From an uncultured Bacilli bacterium (GTDB lineage Bacteria; Bacillota_I; Bacilli_A; RF39; UBA660), in NCBI GenBank assembly GCA_944332705.1, contig CALVKM010000008.1:1-43254 (forward strand): 43,254 bases of DNA. Reading direction: 5' to 3'. Within the stretch, counting starts at the first letter, position 1. Each line of letters opens with the position of its first letter. Under the pieces are notes generated by a model. The model did not search any database and was not told the origin of the DNA. It saw nothing but the letters and a program-made list of their open reading frames with translations. This document shows positions 2,454-40,327 of this stretch, piece after piece. The translations under genes and the position numbers were made by a program.

Positions 2454-4721
2454 TCAACCAAGCTCGATAATGAAAACATATTGTTCAGAACTTGATATAA
2501 TATCTGTATAATTTATTGGATTATACTCATGATTACCAACAACATACCCAGGATCCTGATCATAATATATATCATATATATTATCAGAGCGATTTATTAT
2601 CTCTAATCCTAGTGTATTATATTCACTATTTACATACTCTTCCCAAGTCATACCATTATATGCTTGATATTCTACTTCATCAATTGTAAATGTAATTAAT
2701 CCAGTATTATAATTACCATTATTAACAATTAGATCTGTTACAGATACTTTATTACCATCAAGTAATATTTCATAACCACCACTATTTACTACATTACCAG
2801 ATTCATTAATATACATATCATATTTATTATTTGTACTATTTATAAATTCTTCCCATGTTGTATTTTCATTAACACCGAAACTTATACCGTTAACATAGAA
2901 TTCCATAAAAGGAGTAAGTCTAATTGGATTTTCTCTGGTTCCATCTCCTTCGGAATATAGAACCGAAGATGAAAGACTGAAGGACGGGCGCACGCCGAAA
3001 GCGTTGTAAACAATGAGGCTACTGACGAAAACCCCATAGTACACAGTCAAGTCATAGTCCGAATAGACCGAATAGCGGGAAACAGTCCAATCATAAACTC
3101 CAATGTCTAGCCAATTTTCTGTTAGTGTTTCACCAAAATCTATAGTATCATAATTTATTTTTCCCCAATAATTTGGATTCGAACTATAAACAAAATCAGA
3201 TACATACATTAAGCCTATTTTTGCACTATATGGTTCAAATGGAGCTGTAGTTATTTTTCCTTCTCCTAATTCGGCTTCATATATTGTTTTGGCATCTGTT
3301 CTACCATTGTCACTATAAACATAATTAGAATCTATTCCTCCGACATACCATGTTTCCTCTGCTATCATATTTGACCATGTTGTTCCTAGTGAATTTAAAT
3401 AATTTGTATTTAAATTCACTGTATTTAACTGACTATAACTCCATACATTTCTATATCCAGTTTCTTGATTTGCTAAGCTATAATTTACATTGTTCCAATA
3501 ATATGTAGATAAATCACTAGAGTTTCCAATATATACTGGAGGAAATCCATAGCCCCCAGTAACTTCTGCTACTGTACCTGTTCCTGCATAATCTCCATTT
3601 GTTCCAAGTTCTTCACTTGTTGCATAATCTGCTTTGATTAGTTTTATTTGGTCTCCAAATATTCCTATTACTCTATATAAATTTTCTTCAGGACATGGGC
3701 TTTCATTTGAACCAAAACAGACATAGTTTTTGATATTATTATTTGTTAAATATCCGTCACTTACTGCTTGTTCTAATACATTTTTCATCGTAGTATATTG
3801 GGTATTATTTGTATCATAATCTAATGTAAAATAATAGCTTCCATCACAAGCTCCATTTCCAATAGAAGTTACTGCACCTTCGCAATTATAAATAACTAAT
3901 TCATCATATATTTGACTATATGTTCCAAGGTAAGCCTCTGCTATTTTATAGTCTCCACCACTAAAGCGGTATGAATTATCTCCTGCTTCTAGTGTTCCAT
4001 ATGTGCCTTCACCATCATGATAATATATACCATTTTCTCCATCTACTCCAGTATATAACTCATTTGTTATGTAACTAGCAAGTGTATATACGGGTTTTCT
4101 TGATAATATTATTTCTGCTTCTAATGTTTTTCCACCATTTTCTGCTTGATTAGTATCTAAATTTATAAATGATACTGTAAATTCCCATTCTTGGATTGTA
4201 TCTTGGGTACTGGAATTTGATATTATTTCATATAACTCTGCTACTTCATATAATCCAGTTTTTGTTGTTATATCAAATCCTGATACTCCACCACTTGTTA
4301 CATAATCAAGACCACTAATATTTGTTACAGGATTACCTTCTGGATTGGTAATAGTTAATACTATTTCTGGTGTTTGTTCTTCAGTTGTATAAATATAATC
4401 ATTATAATTTATTTGAAAATATACATAATAATTATATGTAGCATTATCATTTGTTGAATTAGCTCTTAATATTGCTGAACCTACTGCAGTATCTGATAAA
4501 TTATCTCCACCTTCAGTAACATTAAATTGAGTTGGATTTAAACTTATGTCTTTATCTATTTCAAACTTAAGTAAATCTACAGTATCACTTGTGACACTAG
4601 CATTGCCTCTTGCTTCATCTTGTAAACTTGCAATGATATATGCTAGAGTTACTCCAACAAATAATATTAACATAGCAATTATTGTTAATATTATTTTTTT
4701 GTTCTTATCCAATTTTTTCAT
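2454..4721 (-). CDS. Surface-displayed protein with camelysin/TasA-like N-terminus and a DGR-type variable C-type-lectin-like domain (remote target, VR2)
   Basis: 755 aa. It has a positively charged N-terminus and one hydrophobic segment (about residues 9-31), then a region resembling camelysin/TasA-type secreted proteins (about 32-215). A C-type-lectin-like/FGE-like domain follows, ending in the GVRPSFSLSS motif typical of DGR targets. The variable stretch (VR2) covers about residues 547-579, rich in Tyr, Ser, Asp and Val at positions where the DGR template has AAY or GAY codons. About 150 further residues contain two TWEE-type repeats, absent from the other target. The first ~230 residues are nearly identical to those of the target at 29049-30878, so the two genes are recent paralogs. 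Shine-Dalgarno AAGGAG precedes ATG. It probably binds a variable ligand at the cell surface; the ligand is unknown. Confidence 0.85.
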   Translation of the reverse strand: MKKLDKNKKIILTIIAMLILFVGVTLAYIIASLQDEARGNASVTSDTVDLLKFEIDKDISLNPTQFNVTEGGDNLSDTAVGSAILRANSTNDNATYNYYVYFQINYNDYIYTTEEQTPEIVLTITNPEGNPVTNISGLDYVTSGGVSGFDITTKTGLYEVAELYEIISNSSTQDTIQEWEFTVSFINLDTNQAENGGKTLEAEIILSRKPVYTLASYITNELYTGVDGENGIYYHDGEGTYGTLEAGDNSYRFSGGDYKIAEAYLGTYSQIYDELVIYNCEGAVTSIGNGACDGSYYFTLDYDTNNTQYTTMKNVLEQAVSDGYLTNNNIKNYVCFGSNESPCPEENLYRVIGIFGDQIKLIKADYATSEELGTNGDYAGTGTVAEVTGGYGFPPVYIGNSSDLSTYYWNNVNYSLANQETGYRNVWSYSQLNTVNLNTNYLNSLGTTWSNMIAEETWYVGGIDSNYVYSDNGRTDAKTIYEAELGEGKITTAPFEPYSAKIGLMYVSDFVYSSNPNYWGKINYDTIDFGETLTENWLDIGVYDWTVSRYSVYSDYDLTVYYGVFVSSLIVYNAFGVRPSFSLSSSVLYSEGDGTRENPIRLTPFMEFYVNGISFGVNENTTWEEFINSTNNKYDMYINESGNVVNSGGYEILLDGNKVSVTDLIVNNGNYNTGLITFTIDEVEYQAYNGMTWEEYVNSEYNTLGLEIINRSDNIYDIYYDQDPGYVVGNHEYNPINYTDIISSSEQYVFIIELG
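2985..3083 (-). repeat. Variable repeat VR2 (remote, diverged DGR variable region)
   Basis: A 99-nt segment inside the gene above. It aligns with the template repeat at 28734-28836 but has a 3-nt gap and roughly a dozen mismatches at bases that are not A in the coding-strand template, including two in the 3' (IMH-like) end. The codon pattern (TAT, GTC, GAC, AGT, TTC in place of AAY/GAY) still looks like adenine mutagenesis. Its 3' flank (gaagatgaaagact) is shared with VR1 and absent from TR. Inference: it was written by a related but different template, or it is an old copy. Confidence 0.75.
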
Positions 4722-23634: not shown

Positions 23635-24489
23635 TTAAAAATAATAATATATTAATTTTGCATCCATTAAATCGGTGGGATTATCGGGATTTTTAATTTT
23701 AATATCTTCTATTGTTAAAAAAGGATTGTTTTCAATTAGCTCTCTATCTTCTTTATCAAAAGAATTATATTTCGCACTTTTCATTATCAAAAACACATTC
23801 ATTTCTTTATTCTTATCATAAAATTTATCCAATACATAATCAAAAACTTTTCTTGGATTTTCAATATGCCACATTTCTCTAATTCTTAAATCAGTTATAC
23901 CGAGAGGATCAACTTTTTTTAATTTTCCTATTTCATTAGTAGGAACAAACGAATAATCATTTAACTTTTCAATATTATTTTTAATTTTATTTTTAATTTC
24001 AAAGTATACCCCATCAGATGCCGCATAACAATCACCATAAACAATAGTTAAGCATTTTAATTTGTTTTTTTGGACATTACCAATAAAATAAATTATATCT
24101 TTTTCACTCCATCCCCCGATATCATCTTCACAATGTTTACATTTTTTAGTAATCATTGGAGAATCATTATATATTTTTCGCTTTGGGTGTGAGCTATTTA
24201 GCGCAATAGATTTAAATCCCTCTATTTTCTTAACCTCTATTGCATCTCCACCTCTAATAATAATATCTGGTGGATTATTAGCATTTCCTAAATAAGAAAA
24301 TGCATCATTATACTTTTCCATAGCCTCTTCGTCATTAAAGTTAAACGAATCACAAAAAACGTCTTTAACAAATACTTCTAGAGCATCTCCCATATTATTT
24401 GCTCTATTGTTTTGCACATAAAACTTTAATAATTCATTAGAACCATATAATGTTATATTATTCATTGCTTTTAATATATTACTCTTCAT
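23635..24489 (-). CDS. Type II restriction endonuclease, NgoPII-like (probably GGCC-specific)
   Basis: 284 aa. A PD-(D/E)XK-like core is visible as [16 protein letters not shown] (acidic residue, then ExK), followed by [17 protein letters not shown] and a possible zinc site KKCKHCED. This pattern recalls the NgoPII restriction endonuclease family. The overlap (11 bases) with a HaeIII-like cytosine methyltransferase gene makes it the cognate nuclease. Specificity is inferred from the methyltransferase; the family name is from memory of motifs. Confidence 0.8.
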
Positions 24490-25492
24490 TGTCCAAGCCC
24501 TCCAAACTTTCTTTTATTTTTTCTGCTACTGCTTTAGCAAGATTAACTGGTACAGCATTGCCAATCATCTTATATGCGGTAGCAAGATCATTATAATAAA
24601 ATATAAAATCATCAGGAAATGTTTGAATTCTCGCACATTCTCTCACTGATAATCTTCTATATAAATTCTCCTTTCCTGGTTCAAAAATCCTTTTGTTTTC
24701 TCCAACTAAAATCATTTTAGGTGCCTGTGGATGTATTGGTGCGTGCCTTCCTCCAGCTTGTATAGTAAATGATGGCTCATCCCAATTTCTTACTCGATTT
24801 CTTGACATATATATAGTTGAAAATGAACCTGTCATATATTCATGATTTGGAACATTACATTTATTACCATTTGTTTTATTTTTTGATAAAGCTGGAAGAG
24901 CTGAATCTTTCAAATCATATATGGCATCTCTTAAAGTGGGTTTATAATCACAAGGTTTTGGAAATTCAAAATCTATTTTTAAGTCTTTCCTAAAGCCTAC
25001 ATAAAAAACCCTTAGTCTATCTTGAGGAACATTATAATCATTAGCATTCAATAATTTAATGTGCATTTTATATCCAGCTTCTTCAAACAATCTTATAAAA
25101 TTATCTACAGCTTCCTGATGTCTTTTAGATAACATTCCTGACACATTTTCTGCCACAAAAAATTTGGGCTTTTTATCTCTTAATATTCTTATAAAATCAT
25201 AAAATAGTTTCCCTCTTGAATCATTTATTCCTTTTAAAGAACCTGCTTCACTCCAACTTTGACAAGGAGGACCGCCAATTATTCCATCACAATCGGGAAG
25301 TTCACTAGAATCTATTTTTCTAATATCCCTATGATCTAGAGGAGTTTTATGATTTTTTTCATAAGTTTCCCATATGGATTTGTCATATTCATTGGCATAC
25401 ACTATTTCAAATCCAGCATTAGAAAAGCCTAAATCTAGACCACCAGCACCAGCAAATAAACTTAATATTTTAAATTTTTTATTTTCTGTCAT
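24479..25492 (-). CDS. DNA (cytosine-5)-methyltransferase, M.HaeIII-like
   Basis: 337 aa. All main C5-MTase motifs are present in order: [13 protein letters not shown] (I, SAM binding), [10 protein letters not shown] (IV, catalytic Cys), AENVSGM (VI), [11 protein letters not shown] (VIII), the target-recognition region with NHEY...[13 protein letters not shown], then [13 protein letters not shown] (IX) and GNAVPVNLA (X). The target-recognition region closely matches my recollection of M.HaeIII, so GGCC methylation is expected. It protects host DNA from the nuclease encoded next. Confidence 0.93.
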
Positions 25493-26393: not shown

Positions 26394-26651
26394 TTATTTA
26401 ATGATTAAATTACATAAAAACTCAATCATTAAATATCTTTTATAATTATTTACTTTATAATCTACTTTAATAATATCAAAATTATTATTTATTATTATAT
26501 AATTAATATCTAAATTATTAATGTATTTCATTAATAATTTATCACAATTAAAAGTTTTTTTAATACCCTTATCTTCTAATATAATTACATAATTTTTATA
26601 TAACTTTTTAAAAAACAAATATTTATTTTTCATAATAAAAATACTTATCAA
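26394..26651 (-). CDS. Small protein downstream of the DGR reverse transcriptase
   Basis: 85 aa from the first Met (79 aa if the Met at 26633 is used), overlapping the RT 3' end. The sequence LYKNYVIILEDKGIKKTFNCDKLLMKYINNLDINYIIINN faintly resembles the MutS domain-I-like accessory protein encoded earlier in the cassette (phe/tyr-rich strand, FN-C/D-D, final strand), but with the central part shortened. It may be a truncated accessory protein of the DGR. Codon use is extremely AT-rich. Weak assignment. Confidence 0.5.
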   Translation of the reverse strand: MISIFIMKNKYLFFKKLYKNYVIILEDKGIKKTFNCDKLLMKYINNLDINYIIINNNFDIIKVDYKVNNYKRYLMIEFLCNLIIK

Positions 26652-27699
26652 TTAAATTTAATACTTTAATATTACTAGCATATTTGTAACAATTACTATA
26701 AGTCATTATAGAACAAAATGCTCTATAATGACTTATCTTATCTTTATCTAACAAATATCTAACCTCTTTTACTCTCCCCTTTATTTTTTCTAAATTACTT
26801 CTTTTTATCTTTATAACTAACTTTTTATTAATTGCTTTAAATACATATCCAAGAAAACTAAAACCTTCCCTACAACTTACTATTTTAGTTTTCTTGGTAT
26901 TTATTTTTAACTTATATTCTTTTTCTAATTTATCTATTATAATATCTCTAACTTTTCTTAACTTTTCTAAATCATTATCCATAATAACAAAATCATTCAT
27001 ATACCTTACATAATATTTAAGTTTTAAATCATGGACGATATAGTGATCTAATTTATATAAATAAAATATAGATAATATCTGGGAGCTGACATTCCCAATT
27101 GGAAGCCCTAGTTCATGATAATAAAGTGGTACTTCCACTTTATTATCTTTTTTTATTTTATTAATTGTTGAATTAATATATTCTTTATTAGTACTATCTA
27201 TTATCTTACAAATTAAATCATATTCATAACCATCTAATTTATCAATTAATAAATTCTTTAATATTTCATGATTTATGGAATAAAAATATTTACTTATATC
27301 TATTTTTAATATATAAAAGTTCTTATTTTTTAACTGTTTTAAATATTTTATTACTAATTTTATTCCATAATCAGTTCCCATGCCTTTTCTCGTTGCAACA
27401 TTTCTTGAATCTAAATACTTAGTAAGTTTTGCCTCAAGTGCATATCTAGTAACAAAATGATTAATTATTTTATCTCTAACACTTAAAGACATAACTAATC
27501 TACATTTAGGTTCATATATTAAAAATATATTATAGTGTTCATGACCTACATTACCACTATTTAACATATCAATTATATTAGTTATATTTTGTACTTTATT
27601 AATTTCAAACTTAATTAATTTCTTTTTATTTTTTACATTCTTAGATATTTCACTTTCATAAATATTAAGCAAATTAACAAAAGTTATATTATCTTTCAT
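26623..27699 (-). CDS. DGR-type reverse transcriptase with altered catalytic motif (YMND)
   Basis: 358 aa. RT motifs are in order: RLVMSLSVRDKIINHFV (motif 2), LKIDISKYFYSI (motif A, D134), GLPIGNVSSQ (199-207, the IGxxxSQ signature of DGR and related RTs instead of QGxxxSP), and YVRYMNDFVIM at 231-240. The catalytic YxDD box thus reads Y233-M234-N235-D236; the Asn codon AAT is at 26995-26997. The first Asp of this box normally binds catalytic magnesium, so activity should be lost or severely reduced. Everything else looks intact. The start overlaps avd by 11 bases. The normal job is error-prone cDNA synthesis from the TR RNA with mutagenesis at adenines. Confidence 0.93.
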   Translation of the reverse strand: MKDNITFVNLLNIYESEISKNVKNKKKLIKFEINKVQNITNIIDMLNSGNVGHEHYNIFLIYEPKCRLVMSLSVRDKIINHFVTRYALEAKLTKYLDSRNVATRKGMGTDYGIKLVIKYLKQLKNKNFYILKIDISKYFYSINHEILKNLLIDKLDGYEYDLICKIIDSTNKEYINSTINKIKKDNKVEVPLYYHELGLPIGNVSSQILSIFYLYKLDHYIVHDLKLKYYVRYMNDFVIMDNDLEKLRKVRDIIIDKLEKEYKLKINTKKTKIVSCREGFSFLGYVFKAINKKLVIKIKRSNLEKIKGRVKEVRYLLDKDKISHYRAFCSIMTYSNCYKYASNIKVLNLIDKYFYYEK

Positions 27700-28033
27700 T
27701 CATACACCATGCATATAACATTTTATTAATATTAACAAGTTCATTTGCTTTACTACTTGCTTGTTTTTCACTAATATATCTAAGTTTATATGCTCTTTCT
27801 AAAAAGAAATCTAATAAATTTACTTTTGCTAAAGCTATAATTTGATATTCTTTCTTTTTATCTGAATTACTCTCATAATTAGCTTTAATAACACTATCAA
27901 GAAGCATTAATGCTTCCTTATAAATAAGTTTTCGAGATAAATAATCTTTTTTGGGTATTGCAACAAGTATTTTCTCCAAAGATATTATAAAACTTTTAAT
28001 ATTTTTAACAATTAAAAATCTATCGTTATTCAT
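27689..28033 (-). CDS. avd: DGR accessory variability determinant (Avd-like four-helix protein)
   Basis: 114 aa, all-helical. Amphipathic helices (LIVKNIKSFIISLEKILVAIP, YKEALMLLDSVIKANY, IIALAKVNLLDFFLERAY, KANELVNINKMLYAW) match the Avd/23S-rRNA intervening-sequence four-helix bundle. Avd forms a positively charged pentamer that binds the RT and the DGR RNA and is needed for cDNA synthesis in the Bordetella phage system. It overlaps both the upstream MutS-like gene (8 bases) and the RT gene (11 bases). Confidence 0.88.
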   Translation of the reverse strand: MNNDRFLIVKNIKSFIISLEKILVAIPKKDYLSRKLIYKEALMLLDSVIKANYESNSDKKKEYQIIALAKVNLLDFFLERAYKLRYISEKQASSKANELVNINKMLYAWCMNER

Positions 28034-28403
28034 ATATTTTACTCTCTAAATTATTGATAATTTCTTCCAATTCATTAGTAGTTAAACTACCTAATTTTTC
28101 TTTAATTCGATTAAGTCTTTTTTCTAAATCATAGTTTTTTAAAGATTCATTTAAAACTTGTTTATAATTTTTATCTATCCCTTTATATTCACTTACTAAA
28201 GTATCTTTTTCATATATACAATAAGATATTTTATCATTTTCTAATTTTACTATTACTTTATTAATAGCTGATTCCGGAAAACCAACAGAATTCTTATATT
28301 CAGTATATTTATAACCTAATAACTCATGCAGAATTATTCCATCATCCCCAAATGCATTATAAAACTTACCAGTTTTATAAAGTCTCAAACAACATTTATT
28401 CAT
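28026..28403 (-). CDS. MutS domain-I-like DGR accessory protein
   Basis: 125 aa. The core LYKTGKFYNAFGDDGIILHELLGYKY...VGFPESAINKVIVKLENDKISYCIYEKD follows the layout of the MutS mismatch-recognition domain I (F-x-x-G-x-F-Y-E/N-x-F-x-x-D-A, G-x-P, final strands). A coiled tail (about 75-125) replaces the rest of MutS. Stand-alone proteins of this kind are reported as DGR accessories. The start ATG 28403 follows GGAG by four bases. A role in handling mismatched cDNA:VR heteroduplex is inference. Confidence 0.72.
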   Translation of the reverse strand: MNKCCLRLYKTGKFYNAFGDDGIILHELLGYKYTEYKNSVGFPESAINKVIVKLENDKISYCIYEKDTLVSEYKGIDKNYKQVLNESLKNYDLEKRLNRIKEKLGSLTTNELEEIINNLESKIYE

Positions 28404-28552
28404 TATACTCCATTAATTCATTTATAAATAATTACTACCTATTCTGCATCTTTTATATAATATTATCCCGTCATACTCGGTCTTGAATAATTAGCATCCA
28501 TCATTAAATCAAAGTTTAGCAATAACTATTTATACTTATATTAGATGCTTTA

Positions 28553-28582
28553 GCATAGTATTATATCCGCTATGCCAGCGGA
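28553..28582 (-). repeat. TR-flanking direct repeat R1 with hairpin
   Basis: 30 nt, 27 of 30 identical to R2 at 28858-28887. Contains tccgct (28566-28571)/agcgga (28577-28582), and the alternative stem gcatag (28553-28558)/ctatgc (28570-28575). Two of its three differences from R2 preserve the alternative stem. Confidence 0.8.
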
Positions 28583-28610
28583 TGATTAACAATATCTAAT
28601 ATGGTGTATA

Positions 28611-28632
28611 GGAGCGTTACGTATAACACTCC
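28611..28632 (-). ncRNA. DGR RNA hairpin with UACG loop
   Basis: On the minus strand, ggagtgtta pairs with taacgctcc around a TACG loop: nine pairs, one of them G-U only on this strand. It is immediately followed by a second hairpin, 28633-28665: ATCCA/TGGAT enclosing GGAC-GAA-GTCC on the minus strand. Located 3' of TR in the transcript, about 100 nt away. Confidence 0.6.
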
Positions 28633-28733
28633 ATCCATATTTCATGTTTGGACTTCGTCCTGGATAATCTTTGTCCTTTATCTCATCCAATATAAAACCT
28701 TAATCTTATACTCCTAGAACTATATAAAGGTCT

Positions 28734-28836
28734 CGGGCGAACACCGATGTCATTGTTGTCGACATCGTTGTTATCAACATCTACCCCATTGTTCACATTC
28801 CAGGCATTGTTCGAATTGTCCGAATTGCGGGAAACG
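28734..28836 (-). repeat. DGR template repeat (TR)
   Basis: 103 nt, aligned without gaps to VR1 (29127-29229). On the coding (minus) strand it contains 30 adenines in 19 codons: 11 AAY, 6 GAY, one GTA and one ATC when read in the VR frame. The 14 coding-strand 3'-terminal bases (TR/VR boundary, cgggcgaacaccga on plus) contain no coding-strand A and are identical in VR1, as expected for the homing-initiation end. GC is far above the surroundings. There are no start/stop signals; it is a template, not a gene. Confidence 0.96.
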
Positions 28837-28857
28837 TTTATCAATAAGATTACCCAA

Positions 28858-28887
28858 GTATAGTATTGTATCCGCTATACCAGCGGA
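28858..28887 (-). repeat. TR-flanking direct repeat R2 with hairpin
   Basis: 30 nt, 21 bases from the 5' (coding-sense) end of TR. Contains tccgct (28871-28876)/agcgga (28882-28887), and the alternative stem gtatag/ctatac, which carries the compensatory C-G to T-A change relative to R1. Confidence 0.8.
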
Positions 28888-28911
28888 AGTGTTGATAACC
28901 ATTTGACCCCA

Positions 28912-28944
28912 CTAGCATGCTTGCACTTCGCGCAAACACGCTAG
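28912..28944 (-). ncRNA. 15-bp hairpin 5' of TR, paired only as minus-strand RNA
   Basis: On the minus strand every base from 28944 to 28930 pairs with 28912-28926 around a GAA loop. Twelve pairs are Watson-Crick and three are G-U. On the plus strand those three would be A-C mismatches, so the structure favours a minus-strand RNA. It lies between the target stop codon and R2/TR. Confidence 0.65.
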
Positions 28945-29008
28945 ATGTTGTTCTACCATAAACTTCTCAACTACTTTTATTCTATCATTCTAGCTAAAGA
29001 AACACCCC

Positions 29009-29042
29009 GCTCGCCTCGCACCGTAAAGGCGCGAAGACGAGC
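29009..29042 (-). other. GC-rich hairpin just past the DGR target stop codon
   Basis: GCTCG (29009-29013)/CGAGC (29038-29042), plus an eight-pair inner stem with two G-U pairs on the minus strand, loop UUUAC, six bases after the target's TAG. No U-tract follows, so it is not a standard terminator. A GC-rich inverted repeat downstream of VR promotes homing in the Bordetella phage DGR; here it is about 85 bases from the VR end, so the equivalence is uncertain. Confidence 0.6.
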
Positions 29043-29048
29043 AATGTC

Positions 29049-30878
29049 CTAACCCTGGATTATGAAAGGGTCATCGGCAGTGCCGCTGCCCCCACTCAAA
29101 GTTATCGAAGATGAAAGACTAAAAGACGGGCGAACACCGAAGTCACCGCTGACGACAACGTCGTTAACAACACCCACCCCACTGCTCACACCCCAGGCAT
29201 TGCTCGAAGCGCCCGAACTGCGGGAAACGGTCCAATCAACAAGTCCTAGATCTAACCAATTAGATGTGAACCATTTTAAAGCTTCTGTTTCTTGACTACT
29301 AGAATCAACTGTTCCCCAATATTCTGGATTCGCTCCGTAAACAAAGTCTGATGCATACATTAATCCGATTTTGGCATTGTATGGTTCAAATGGCGCTGTA
29401 GTTACTTTTCCTTCTCCTAATTCGGCATCATATATTGTTTTTGCACTTGCTCTATTAGAACCACTCATAACAGTATTATAATCTATTCCTCCAACATACC
29501 ATGTCGTATTCTCTATCATATTTTGCCATGTTGTACCTAGTGAATTTAAATAATTTGTATTTAAATTCACTGTATTTAACTCACTATAACTCCATACATT
29601 TCTATATCCAGTTTCTTGATATGCTAAGTTATAATTTGCATCATTCCAGTAATACGATGATAAATCATTGTTTCCTCTATATGGTACCATAGACATATAC
29701 ATATTTAAAGTAGAAGCAGCACTAGAATAATCTCCATTTGTTCCAAGTTCAGCATTTGTTGCATAATTTGCCTTGATTAGTCTTATTTGGTCTCCAAACA
29801 TTCCTATTACTCTATATAAATTTTCTTCTGGACATGGTGTTTCATTTGAACCAAAGCAGACATAATTTCTAATATTATCTCCAGTTAAATACCCATCGCT
29901 CACTGCTTGTTCTAACGCTTCATTTACTGTAGCATATTGTGTATTATTACTATCATACGCTAATTCATAGGTTATATTTCCGGAACATTGTTGTATAAAA
30001 GTTGTATCTTCTACTCCATCACAATATCTTTTTATTACTCCTCCATATATTTGACTATATGTTCCAAGGTAAGCCTCTGCTATTTCATAATCCCCACCAC
30101 TAAAACGGTATGAATTGTCTCCTGCTTCTAGTGTTCCATATGTACCTGTTCCATCATGATAATAAAGACCATTTTCTCCATCTACTCCAGTATATAACTC
30201 ATTTGTTATATAACTAGCAAGTGTATATACGGGTTCTCTTGACAATATTATTTCTGCTTCTAATGTTTTTCCTCCATTTTCGGCTTGATTTGTATCTAAA
30301 TTTATGAATGATACTGTAAATGTCCAATCTTGGATTGTATCAGTTATACTTGATGTTGATGTGATTTCGTAAAGCTCTTCCACTGTATATAATCCACTTT
30401 TAGTAGTTATATCAAATCCTGATACTCCACCACTTGTGACATAATCTAGTCCACTAATATTTGTTACTGGATTATCATTAGGGTCTGTTATTGTAAGTAC
30501 TATTTCTGGTGTTTGTGTCTCTGTTGTATAAATATAATCATTAGAATTTATTTGAAAATAAACATAATAATCATATGTTGCACTATCATTTGTTGAATTT
30601 GCTCTTAGTATTGCTGAACCTACTGCAGTATCTGATAAATTATCTCCTCCTTCAACTACATTAAATTGTGTTGGATTTAAACTTATATCTTTATCTATTT
30701 CAAACTTAAGTAAATCTACAGTATCACTTGTGACACTAGCATTTCCTCTTGCTTCATCTTGTAAACTTGCAATGATATATGCTAAAGTTGAACCAACACA
30801 TAATATTAACACAGCAATTATTGTTAATATTATTTTTTTGTTCTTATCCAATTTTTTGGTACCTATATTTTGTTCCAT
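29049..30878 (-). CDS. DGR target: surface-displayed protein with camelysin/TasA-like N-terminus and variable C-type-lectin-like domain
   Basis: 609 aa. One N-terminal membrane segment (about 13-35), a camelysin/TasA-like secreted domain (to about 215), a linker, and a C-terminal C-type-lectin/FGE-like fold (about 300-609) containing YRVIGMFGDQI, YYWNDANY, GYRNVWSYSEL and the GVRPSFSLSS end. The variable residues (VR1) are about 551-584, near the C-terminus as in other DGR targets. The architecture implies a cell-surface adhesin whose binding face is diversified. Nearest paralog: 2454-4721, which carries an extra C-terminal extension. The Shine-Dalgarno GAAGGAG precedes the ATG at 30878. It is the first gene of the DGR unit. 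Confidence 0.92.
   Translation of the reverse strand: MEQNIGTKKLDKNKKIILTIIAVLILCVGSTLAYIIASLQDEARGNASVTSDTVDLLKFEIDKDISLNPTQFNVVEGGDNLSDTAVGSAILRANSTNDSATYDYYVYFQINSNDYIYTTETQTPEIVLTITDPNDNPVTNISGLDYVTSGGVSGFDITTKSGLYTVEELYEITSTSSITDTIQDWTFTVSFINLDTNQAENGGKTLEAEIILSREPVYTLASYITNELYTGVDGENGLYYHDGTGTYGTLEAGDNSYRFSGGDYEIAEAYLGTYSQIYGGVIKRYCDGVEDTTFIQQCSGNITYELAYDSNNTQYATVNEALEQAVSDGYLTGDNIRNYVCFGSNETPCPEENLYRVIGMFGDQIRLIKANYATNAELGTNGDYSSAASTLNMYMSMVPYRGNNDLSSYYWNDANYNLAYQETGYRNVWSYSELNTVNLNTNYLNSLGTTWQNMIENTTWYVGGIDYNTVMSGSNRASAKTIYDAELGEGKVTTAPFEPYNAKIGLMYASDFVYGANPEYWGTVDSSSQETEALKWFTSNWLDLGLVDWTVSRSSGASSNAWGVSSGVGVVNDVVVSGDFGVRPSFSLSSSITLSGGSGTADDPFIIQG
29127..29229 (-). repeat. Variable repeat VR1 in the DGR target
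   Basis: 103 nt, gap-free against TR. There are 19 differences, all at coding-strand TR adenines (14 A to G, 4 A to T, 1 A to C). None of the 73 other template bases differ. They alter 16 codons, 15 of them non-synonymously (for example AAT to GCT, GAT to GTT). No stop codon is created. Confidence 0.96.
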
Positions 30879-39073: not shown

Positions 39074-39180
39074 GACTATCCTTGTATCACTACAAGGCAT
39101 TTCTGCTTCACCAAGTCCTTTAGACTCTCCACAGACCAACTTCGGATGGTCGCCACCCTACTATTTTCATTTTATTTATA
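39074..39180 (-). ncRNA. Probable omega-RNA (reRNA) at the tnpB 3' end
   Basis: In minus-strand order after the tnpB stop: stem GACCA/TGGTC (39134-39151), stem AGTC/GACT (39114-39126), then a terminal hairpin CCTTGTA-GTGA-TACAAGG (39080-39097) with a GNRA loop. The layout matches the 3'-end guide RNAs of TnpB elements, in which bases beyond the right end form the guide. The 5' end inside tnpB is not determined. Confidence 0.6.
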
Positions 39181-40327
39181 TTAAACTTTGCATATATATT
39201 TTTAATCCTTCAAACATTATATTGATACTAGCATTGATATCACGATCATGTATATATCCACATTTAGGACATTCCCAACTCCTTATACTTAAATCTTTTA
39301 ATTTCTTGTTTTGATATTCACATACTGAACAAACTTGGCTACTTGGATAATATCTATTTACTTTATATAATTTTTTGTTTTTCCAAAGACATTTGTATTC
39401 CAAGACTCGTTTTATTTCTGCAAGTGGGATATTCACTAAATGTTTTGCTATACTTTTTGTTTGATACATTGCTTTAATATCTAAATCTTCCATTACGATA
39501 ATATCATTATCTTTAACTATTTTATTTGTTATATCATGGATTAAATGCTTGCGGATATTTTTAAGTTTCATATATGCTCGTTTTATTTTTAATTTTATTT
39601 TTTCTCTATTTTTACTTCCTTTTTGACATCTTGCAAGAGCCTTTTGTAATCCCTTAATTCTTTTATTAATATTTGCGCATTCTAGGGTGTTTTCTATCTT
39701 TTCATTATGACTAGTTATTATTAAATCTTTTATACCTAAATCTAATCCTACAATACTTCTAGGTTGAAATGGTTGCTCTATTAGTGGCTCTTCCACTAAT
39801 ACACTAACATAATACTTAAGCCCTTCTCTTCTTATAACTGCACTTTTGATATTACCGACAAAGACTTCTTTATTTCTATATCCTCTGATAGGTACTTCTT
39901 TTAACTTTGGTAATGTTATTGTTCTATTTTTTAAATCTACTCTAATACTTTCGTAGTTTTTATCTTTATAAGTACTTTTAATATTATTGGTTTTATAACT
40001 ATTACCTATATCTTTATTTTTAAATTTAGGAAATCCATTATTTTGACTAAAATATCTATGATATGCATTTTCCAAATCAAATACAGGATTTCTTAAACTG
40101 CAACTATCTACTTCTTTTAACCAGGGATAACTTTTACATAATTGTGGTATTTCTTTTATTTGTTCATAACAAGTTTTTGATATACCTGTTTTTTTATATT
40201 CATTTATTCGTTCTTCTAAAAAATGATTATATATAAATCTAGAACAACCAATAGTTTGATTGATTAACTTTTTTTGTTCATTGTTAGGATATAATCTAAA
40301 TTGATAACCATTTAAAATAGTAGTCAT
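39176..40327 (-). CDS. tnpB: RNA-guided endonuclease TnpB
   Basis: 383 aa. N-terminal YQFRLYPNNEQKKLI opening. RuvC-like catalytic residues are in place: D196 in VGLDLGIKDL, E280 in IIVMEDLDI, and Asp in HDRDINASINI (361-363). A CxxC...CxxC zinc ribbon is present (C333, C336, C353, C356). All motifs are intact, so an active nuclease is likely. TnpB cuts DNA at guide-matched sites next to a short motif and helps keep the element in place. AAGGAGG lies nine bases before ATG. Confidence 0.93.
   Translation of the reverse strand: MTTILNGYQFRLYPNNEQKKLINQTIGCSRFIYNHFLEERINEYKKTGISKTCYEQIKEIPQLCKSYPWLKEVDSCSLRNPVFDLENAYHRYFSQNNGFPKFKNKDIGNSYKTNNIKSTYKDKNYESIRVDLKNRTITLPKLKEVPIRGYRNKEVFVGNIKSAVIRREGLKYYVSVLVEEPLIEQPFQPRSIVGLDLGIKDLIITSHNEKIENTLECANINKRIKGLQKALARCQKGSKNREKIKLKIKRAYMKLKNIRKHLIHDITNKIVKDNDIIVMEDLDIKAMYQTKSIAKHLVNIPLAEIKRVLEYKCLWKNKKLYKVNRYYPSSQVCSVCEYQNKKLKDLSIRSWECPKCGYIHDRDINASINIMFEGLKIYMQSLI

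Follow-up and report, generated by a model that had tools for sequence, protein, structure and literature searches.

We found that a 43,254-nt stretch of an uncultured Bacilli bacterium of the UBA660 lineage (GCA_944332705.1, contig CALVKM010000008.1; hereafter the whole stretch is called the window) carries a diversity-generating retroelement (DGR) in which the variable repeat VR1 is an adenine-mutagenised copy of the template repeat (TR), and in which the reverse transcriptase (RT) encoded in the same cassette has asparagine in place of the first aspartate of its catalytic YxDD motif. We consider it probable that this is a bacterial chromosomal DGR whose VR1 arose by retrohoming, that its RT in cis is now inactive or nearly so, and that VR1 was rewritten either before that mutation or in trans. 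The cassette consists of a target gene with VR1, the TR, a structured template-RNA spacer, a MutS domain I-like accessory protein (“MSL”), Avd, the RT, and a second MSL. It is one of four RT-bearing cassettes in a set that spans the genome and also includes two TR loci without an RT and about 35 paralogous targets, few of which still match a TR. Any further rewriting of this surface-protein gene would probably depend on an enzyme encoded elsewhere in the genome. The assembly is metagenome-derived (1.43 Mb in 81 contigs, 84% complete, 5% contamination).

An adenine-only signature beside a substituted catalytic site

Upon recomputing the alignment, the TR and VR1 aligned without gaps along 103 nt (84 positions identical, 19 different), where all 19 mismatches fell on adenines of the coding (-) strand, i.e., on T of the + strand (14 T>C, 4 T>A, 1 T>G), and none on the other 73 bases. 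The TR contains 30 adenines, and the probability that all 19 changes would be confined to them by chance was 2.2e-13 (hypergeometric). This reproduced exactly the alignment reported in an earlier note on this DNA, and the VR1 frame was open within the 609-aa target, in line with that note's claim that no stop codons result. A de novo scan of 43 loci from siblings and relatives recovered adenine-only TR/VR pairs in 21 of them, versus 0 of 10 shuffled loci. The parts of the cassette, all on the minus strand, are as follows.

26394–26633 (-): the second of two MutS-domain-I-like proteins (79 aa); its gene overlaps the RT stop codon and lies within an 85-aa open reading frame (ORF) at 26394–26651
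26623–27699 (-): DGR reverse transcriptase, 358 aa, with SQ motif IGNVSSQ and catalytic motif YMND
26995–26997 (-): RT codon 235, which reads AAT (Asn) where siblings and relatives have GAT for the first catalytic Asp of YxDD
27689–28033 (-): Avd, 114 aa (NF033474, 8e-9; PHROG “Avd protein of DGR,” 3e-9)
28026–28403 (-): MSL, MutS domain I-like accessory protein, 125 aa (PF01624, 5.4e-7, above the Pfam cut-off)
28591–28745 (-): structured RNA, the putative template-RNA scaffold or spacer (model R1, 36 pairs), adjoining the TR 3′ end
28734–28836 (-): TR, 103 nt, 30 adenines
29009–29042 (-): GC-rich stem-loop just past the target stop codon, found in four TR-matched targets and in relatives
29049–30878 (-): target gene, 609 aa, with a probable N-terminal membrane anchor and a CLec/FGE-like C-terminal domain (29055–29873) that holds VR1
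29076–29090 (-): in-frame hairpin GGCAG-cggca-CTGCC, 36 nt 3′ of VR1, with an only moderately strong stem
29127–29229 (-): VR1, 103 nt, changed at 19 of 30 template-A positions and at 0 of 73 others

The element belongs to the DGRs, as evidenced by the adenine-confined TR/VR pair, an RT with the SQ motif (phrog_1423, 4e-63), Avd together with MSL, and a structured RNA 3′ of the TR. The Avd, the MutS-like ORF, the DGR-type RT, and the C-type-lectin-like target that the earlier note had named were all found in place, the last through a model of the C-terminal domain with a C-type-lectin/FGE-like fold. Its gene order (target-TR-MutS-like-avd-RT) also stood, and differs from that of the Bordetella phage BPP-1; permuted orders of the parts are already known among DGR cassettes (PMC3521204, PMC6642488). 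To this we add that the 85-aa ORF belongs to the cassette, that the catalytic motif of the RT reads YMND, that a structured RNA follows the TR and a hairpin follows VR1, and that sibling cassettes and further targets lie at other sites of the genome.

The best solved relative of the RT was the reverse transcriptase chain of 8ub7 (9e-25), which we take to be the Bordetella DGR enzyme. The feature expected of a catalytically competent RT, YxDD, was missing from the window RT, whose motif C reads YVRYMNDFVIM. The first catalytic Asp was kept in 32 of 32 readable relatives from the same genome, genus, and family (30 with an uninterrupted YMDD and 2 split by an intron after YMD), and YMND was unique among the 33 RTs. 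The first Asp of YxDD in reverse transcriptases is a catalytic metal ligand, and because Asn occupies this position, the cassette's own RT is, by established RT chemistry, probably inactive or nearly so. A change of YMDD to SMAA served as the catalytically inactive control in work on BPP-1 (PMC12875486, PMC3240598). Apart from this codon, the RT displayed a dN/dS of 0.16 to 0.22 versus siblings and relatives, which indicates purifying selection, and the catalytic loss therefore looks recent, if the base call is right. The description of the element as “complete” thus did not hold in two respects: The RT carries an Asn that no relative has, and the element is not self-contained, given the sibling cassettes, RT-less TRs, and remote targets across the genome. 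YMND weakens the claim of a self-sufficient active element, not DGR membership by descent.

Template RNA, hairpins, targets, and accessory proteins

The ~140 nt that follow the TR were the non-coding stretch of the window matched most widely across the genus. An alignment of 24 copies yielded 36 base pairs, 23 of which showed compensatory double changes; pairing was kept in 96.7% of cells, as compared to 85.6% in shuffled and 37 to 51% in slid alignments, and the covariation score was 0.380 versus 0.159 after shuffling. A search of Rfam with this RNA gave no match. We built a covariance model without the cassettes of a second layout, in which the TR lies between the RT and the last ORF, and searched loci outside its alignment. 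The model blindly found the RNA of the second-layout cassettes at 67 to 86 bits and gave weaker matches in other genera at 25 to 37 bits. In nine cassettes, eight of them found blind, the RNA began at most 15 nt from the TR 3′ end. The genome contains six copies, one of them truncated, with intact copies in the window cassette (C8) and in C3, C52, and C5; the covarying RNA was kept in all cassettes, also beside the RT-less TR of C5. We read it as a template-RNA scaffold, because the corresponding BPP-1 spacer 3′ of the TR folds and recruits bRT-Avd (PMC12875486). Similarity of the scaffold between cassettes would let one RT serve several TRs. In the relative G028, the scaffold RNA occurred on contigs C47 and C43 (two copies), and no DGR RT matched at E 1e-20; either its RT is unassembled or that genome has templates without an RT.

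An in-frame hairpin ~36 to 39 nt after the VR occurred in the window target, in the three targets of the C3 TR, in the C16 target, and in one C5 target, and was absent at that distance from the other target paralogs. When “matched” is defined as at most 10% non-A mismatch to a TR, 5 of 6 matched targets carried the hairpin as compared to 1 of 28 unmatched ones (Fisher p = 1.3e-4, a value that overstates independence, as the members are related). The stems varied in sequence while pairing was kept (AGCGGC/GCCGCT, CAGCGGA/TCCGCTG, and TACTGG/CCAGTA; ACTGGC/GCCAGT in relatives), which fits the rule established for the hairpin 3′ of the VR in BPP-1, where stem structure matters and sequence does not (PMC3240598). 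Against synonymous codon shuffles, the hairpins of the C3, C44, C46, and C16 targets reached z values of -4 to -5. Past the stop codon, the targets of the second-layout loci (L017, L018, L024, L031, L050) displayed a different conserved GC hairpin, e.g., CCTCCGCCGGCGGC...GCCCGGAGG. Between the post-stop stem-loop and the TR of the window, position 28857 or thereabouts was a common start or end point of many matches to relatives and siblings, which suggests that target-end and TR modules were joined and separated at about this point.

The target family comprises about 35 paralogs dispersed in the genome, which beyond the retrieved loci were assessed by search only. We compared each VR with each resident TR, ignoring template adenines. 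VR1 displayed 0 of 73 non-A mismatches to the window TR. For the C3 TR, the counts were 1 of 68 (C3 target), 2 of 68 (C46), and 6 of 68 (C44), where the C46 and C44 targets had no adjacent TR within the sequence examined; for the C52 TR, they were 0 of 71 (C16) and 7 of 72 (C9). Most other paralogs matched no resident TR. A paralogous target within the window (2454–4721, minus strand), with VR2 at 2982–3084, was considered as a second live target of the window TR and rejected, as it displayed 21 of 73 non-A mismatches and no hairpin. Its template-A positions still diverge more than the remaining ones (p = 0.002), and this paralog is probably retired. By sequence, the C-terminal domain of the window target resembled at best DUF6273, in 4 of 29 members. 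Its structural model (pLDDT 85) had its best match in the Thomasclavelia ramosa IgA peptidase (N-terminal domain; 9qa6, Z 16.4, 17% identity), followed at a clear distance by Treponema denticola variable protein 1, PvdO, Lcl, and CTLDs (Z 4.5 to 7.1).

MSL is a known DGR accessory that the papers found mention only briefly (PMC10053308). The small ORF that we assign to a second MSL was present in 32 of 32 genus cassettes whose contig extends far enough, either right after the RT or, in the second layout, after the TR. Its profile aligned with the MSL profile in hhalign (probability 96%, E 3.9e-9). The 79-aa protein had no Pfam MutS_I match, and Foldseek alone gave no significant match for its model (pLDDT 94); a second look with a structural aligner (VIA) returned MutS/MSH3 domain I in 13 of the 13 top rows (Z 5.1 to 5.7), the next row scoring 2.4. 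Profile and model together point to a MutS-domain-I-like fold for this protein. A full-text literature search for DGR with “MutS-like” found no paper.

Sibling cassettes and the possible source of reverse transcription

Each assembled RT-bearing cassette of the genome, i.e., that of the window and its siblings C3, C52, and C17, has its own distinct lesion. The C3 RT (locus L049), which is 89% identical to the window RT over the first 239 residues, is split inside its YMDD codons. The interruption is a group II intron (L049:6473–8335; matched by Rfam RF02005 and RF00029), with TATATGGATG ahead of its initial GTGCGAC and ATTTCATT behind its end. Once joined, the exons read Y-M-D-D-F-I-I-M-D, and splicing would thus restore YMDD. 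The same insertion occurs in the relative G019 on C1 (L100), at 99.1% identity over 1,960 nt. The group II twintron of Trichodesmium was considered as a precedent for an intron in a DGR RT and rejected, since it lies in an RNase HI-associated gene (PMC4649490). The C52 RT (L048) is cut near its 3′ end by an IS21-like element that has a 7-bp direct repeat; in the SQ region of this RT, GISISN stands in place of the GLPIGN of the others. In C17 (L050), which has the second layout and an RT of 43% identity, the TR is interrupted by three tandem tyrosine-recombinase-like genes (L050:5285–9012) flanked by a CTTGAA direct repeat. Two further loci, C16 (with a TR identical to that of C52) and C5, have a target and a TR and no RT.

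In the mechanism that we favor, the TR would be transcribed together with its 3′ scaffold, the scaffold would recruit RT and Avd, and A-mutagenised cDNA would replace VR1 beside the hairpin. This rewriting would have occurred shortly before the RT mutation, or in trans by a different RT of this genome. The sibling RT of C3 is the best candidate for such a supply, and its group II intron would have to splice. Recent activity or a supply of RT in trans is suggested because several VRs match TRs near-perfectly outside adenines, some of them far from any RT. Four points weigh against this mechanism: RT activity, splicing, and trans complementation are predictions from sequence; the Asn codon depends on one assembled base of a metagenome assembly; the hairpin of the window target is weak when taken alone (z -2.0, p = 0.04 against synonymous codon shuffles); and C16 and C52, which have 360 nt in common at 99.7% identity, may be alternative structures of one locus, in which case the number of independent cassettes is one fewer.

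Among the alternatives, it is possible, though we do not think it likely, that the DGR is dying, with all RTs of the genome non-functional, a poorly splicing C3 intron, and VRs that are frozen records. The lesion in every assembled RT-bearing cassette speaks for this, as does the lack of a TR match and of a hairpin in most of the ~35 target paralogs. However, VR1 and the C16 VR do not differ from their TRs at any non-A position, which requires activity until very recently; C8, C3, C52, and C5 all have an intact scaffold RNA; and the C3 intron has canonical ends and is 99% conserved in G019; moreover, the assembly is incomplete, and an intact RT may be missing from it. We regard as unlikely that the window holds a fully active, self-sufficient DGR working in cis like that of BPP-1, with YMND due to an error in sequencing or assembly, or to a minor allele. 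VR1 without any non-A change, an RT whose dN/dS shows no relaxation, and the intactness of all other parts would agree with it, but the change is a clean GAT>AAT codon in an otherwise intact assembled gene, and given the lesions in C3, C52, and C17, a loss of RT function would not be unusual in this genome. That the YMND enzyme is kept for a non-catalytic role (e.g., template RNA binding or regulation) while another RT synthesises seems very improbable: The dN/dS is low up to the present, yet no relative has a catalytic-site change, and nothing thus hints at an inactive lineage that has been maintained. A chance or gene-conversion repeat, for which we found nothing in favor, can practically be dismissed, since the adenine confinement has a p of about 2e-13, the cassette has Avd, an RT with the SQ motif, the scaffold RNA, and a putative hairpin after the VR, and the adenine specificity recurs in 21 other loci from independent cassettes.

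A phage origin was also considered and rejected: The best phage RTs among the matches listed were <35% identical, viral contigs gave one distant relative, and the flanking genes on both sides are chromosomal (polC, dnaE, and lepA by sequence). The combination of PolC with DnaE would probably place the bacterium in the Bacillota. Two genes lie close downstream of the DGR, at 23635–25492, one for a restriction endonuclease of the NgoPII type (PF09521, 2e-96) and one for a C5-cytosine methyltransferase (PF00145, 5e-108), and a 383-aa ORF at 39176–40327 of the window resembles, by eye, a TnpB/OrfB-family protein.

Relation to known systems and implications

As in the BPP-1 DGR (mtd/avd/TR/brt), the window element displays adenine-only TR/VR differences, Avd, an SQ-motif RT, a structured spacer 3′ of the TR (PMC12875486), and a putative inverted repeat 3′ of the VR (PMC3240598). 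Unlike BPP-1, it is chromosomal rather than phage-borne, its TR lies ahead of MSL-avd-RT, it encodes two MutS-I-like proteins, its RT reads YMND, and TRs and targets are dispersed; the hairpin, moreover, lies in the reading frame, 36 to 39 nt from the VR, and has loops of 3 to 5 nt that do not fit GRNA. The closest precedent is Thiohalocapsa PB-PSB1 (PMC10907252), whose genome likewise holds several DGR loci, including degenerate ones, shows damage by transposons, and has targets whose matching TR lies elsewhere (activity in trans). Because that genome already shows one, a dispersed DGR network as such is not new. What differs here is a small-genome bacterium with about 35 paralogous targets, an MSL pair, a defined scaffold RNA family, and RT catalytic codons hit both by a substitution and by a group II intron. 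The 125-aa ORF is like the MSL (PF01624) accessory of other DGRs, and a second, shorter relative without a Pfam match follows the RT here. The target C-terminal domain shares its fold with the DGR variable protein TvpA of Treponema denticola (2y3c, Z 7.1), but among solved structures the N-terminal part of the Thomasclavelia ramosa IgA peptidase comes closest. As far as we have checked, four features are new: a catalytic substitution in an RT next to a VR that is perfectly templated, a DGR RT with a group II intron within its YMDD codons, MutS-I-like proteins that come as a pair, and a family of spacer RNAs backed by covariation.

More tentatively, the genome may hold a dispersed network in which templates, targets, and RT are separate, and in which cassettes with a dead or absent RT would retain intact templates and be served in trans by a single RT that has a self-splicing group II intron in its catalytic codons. 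Splicing would then gate the hypermutation of several surface proteins, and the two MutS-I-like proteins might, with Avd and the scaffold RNA, handle the mismatched cDNA or target.

The sequence separates the parts of a DGR, with a fresh-looking template and target beside a probably defective RT, TRs without RTs, and targets without TRs. DGRs are usually described cassette by cassette, and the separated parts found here make the supply of RT in trans directly testable. The occurrence of paired MutS-I-like proteins in every assessable genus cassette offers a handle on the role of the little-studied MSL accessory. Roux et al. state that their own survey method would miss remote targets (PMC8144416); the scaffold RNA model provides a search tool for template RNAs that lie remote from any RT and are invisible to RT-adjacent surveys.

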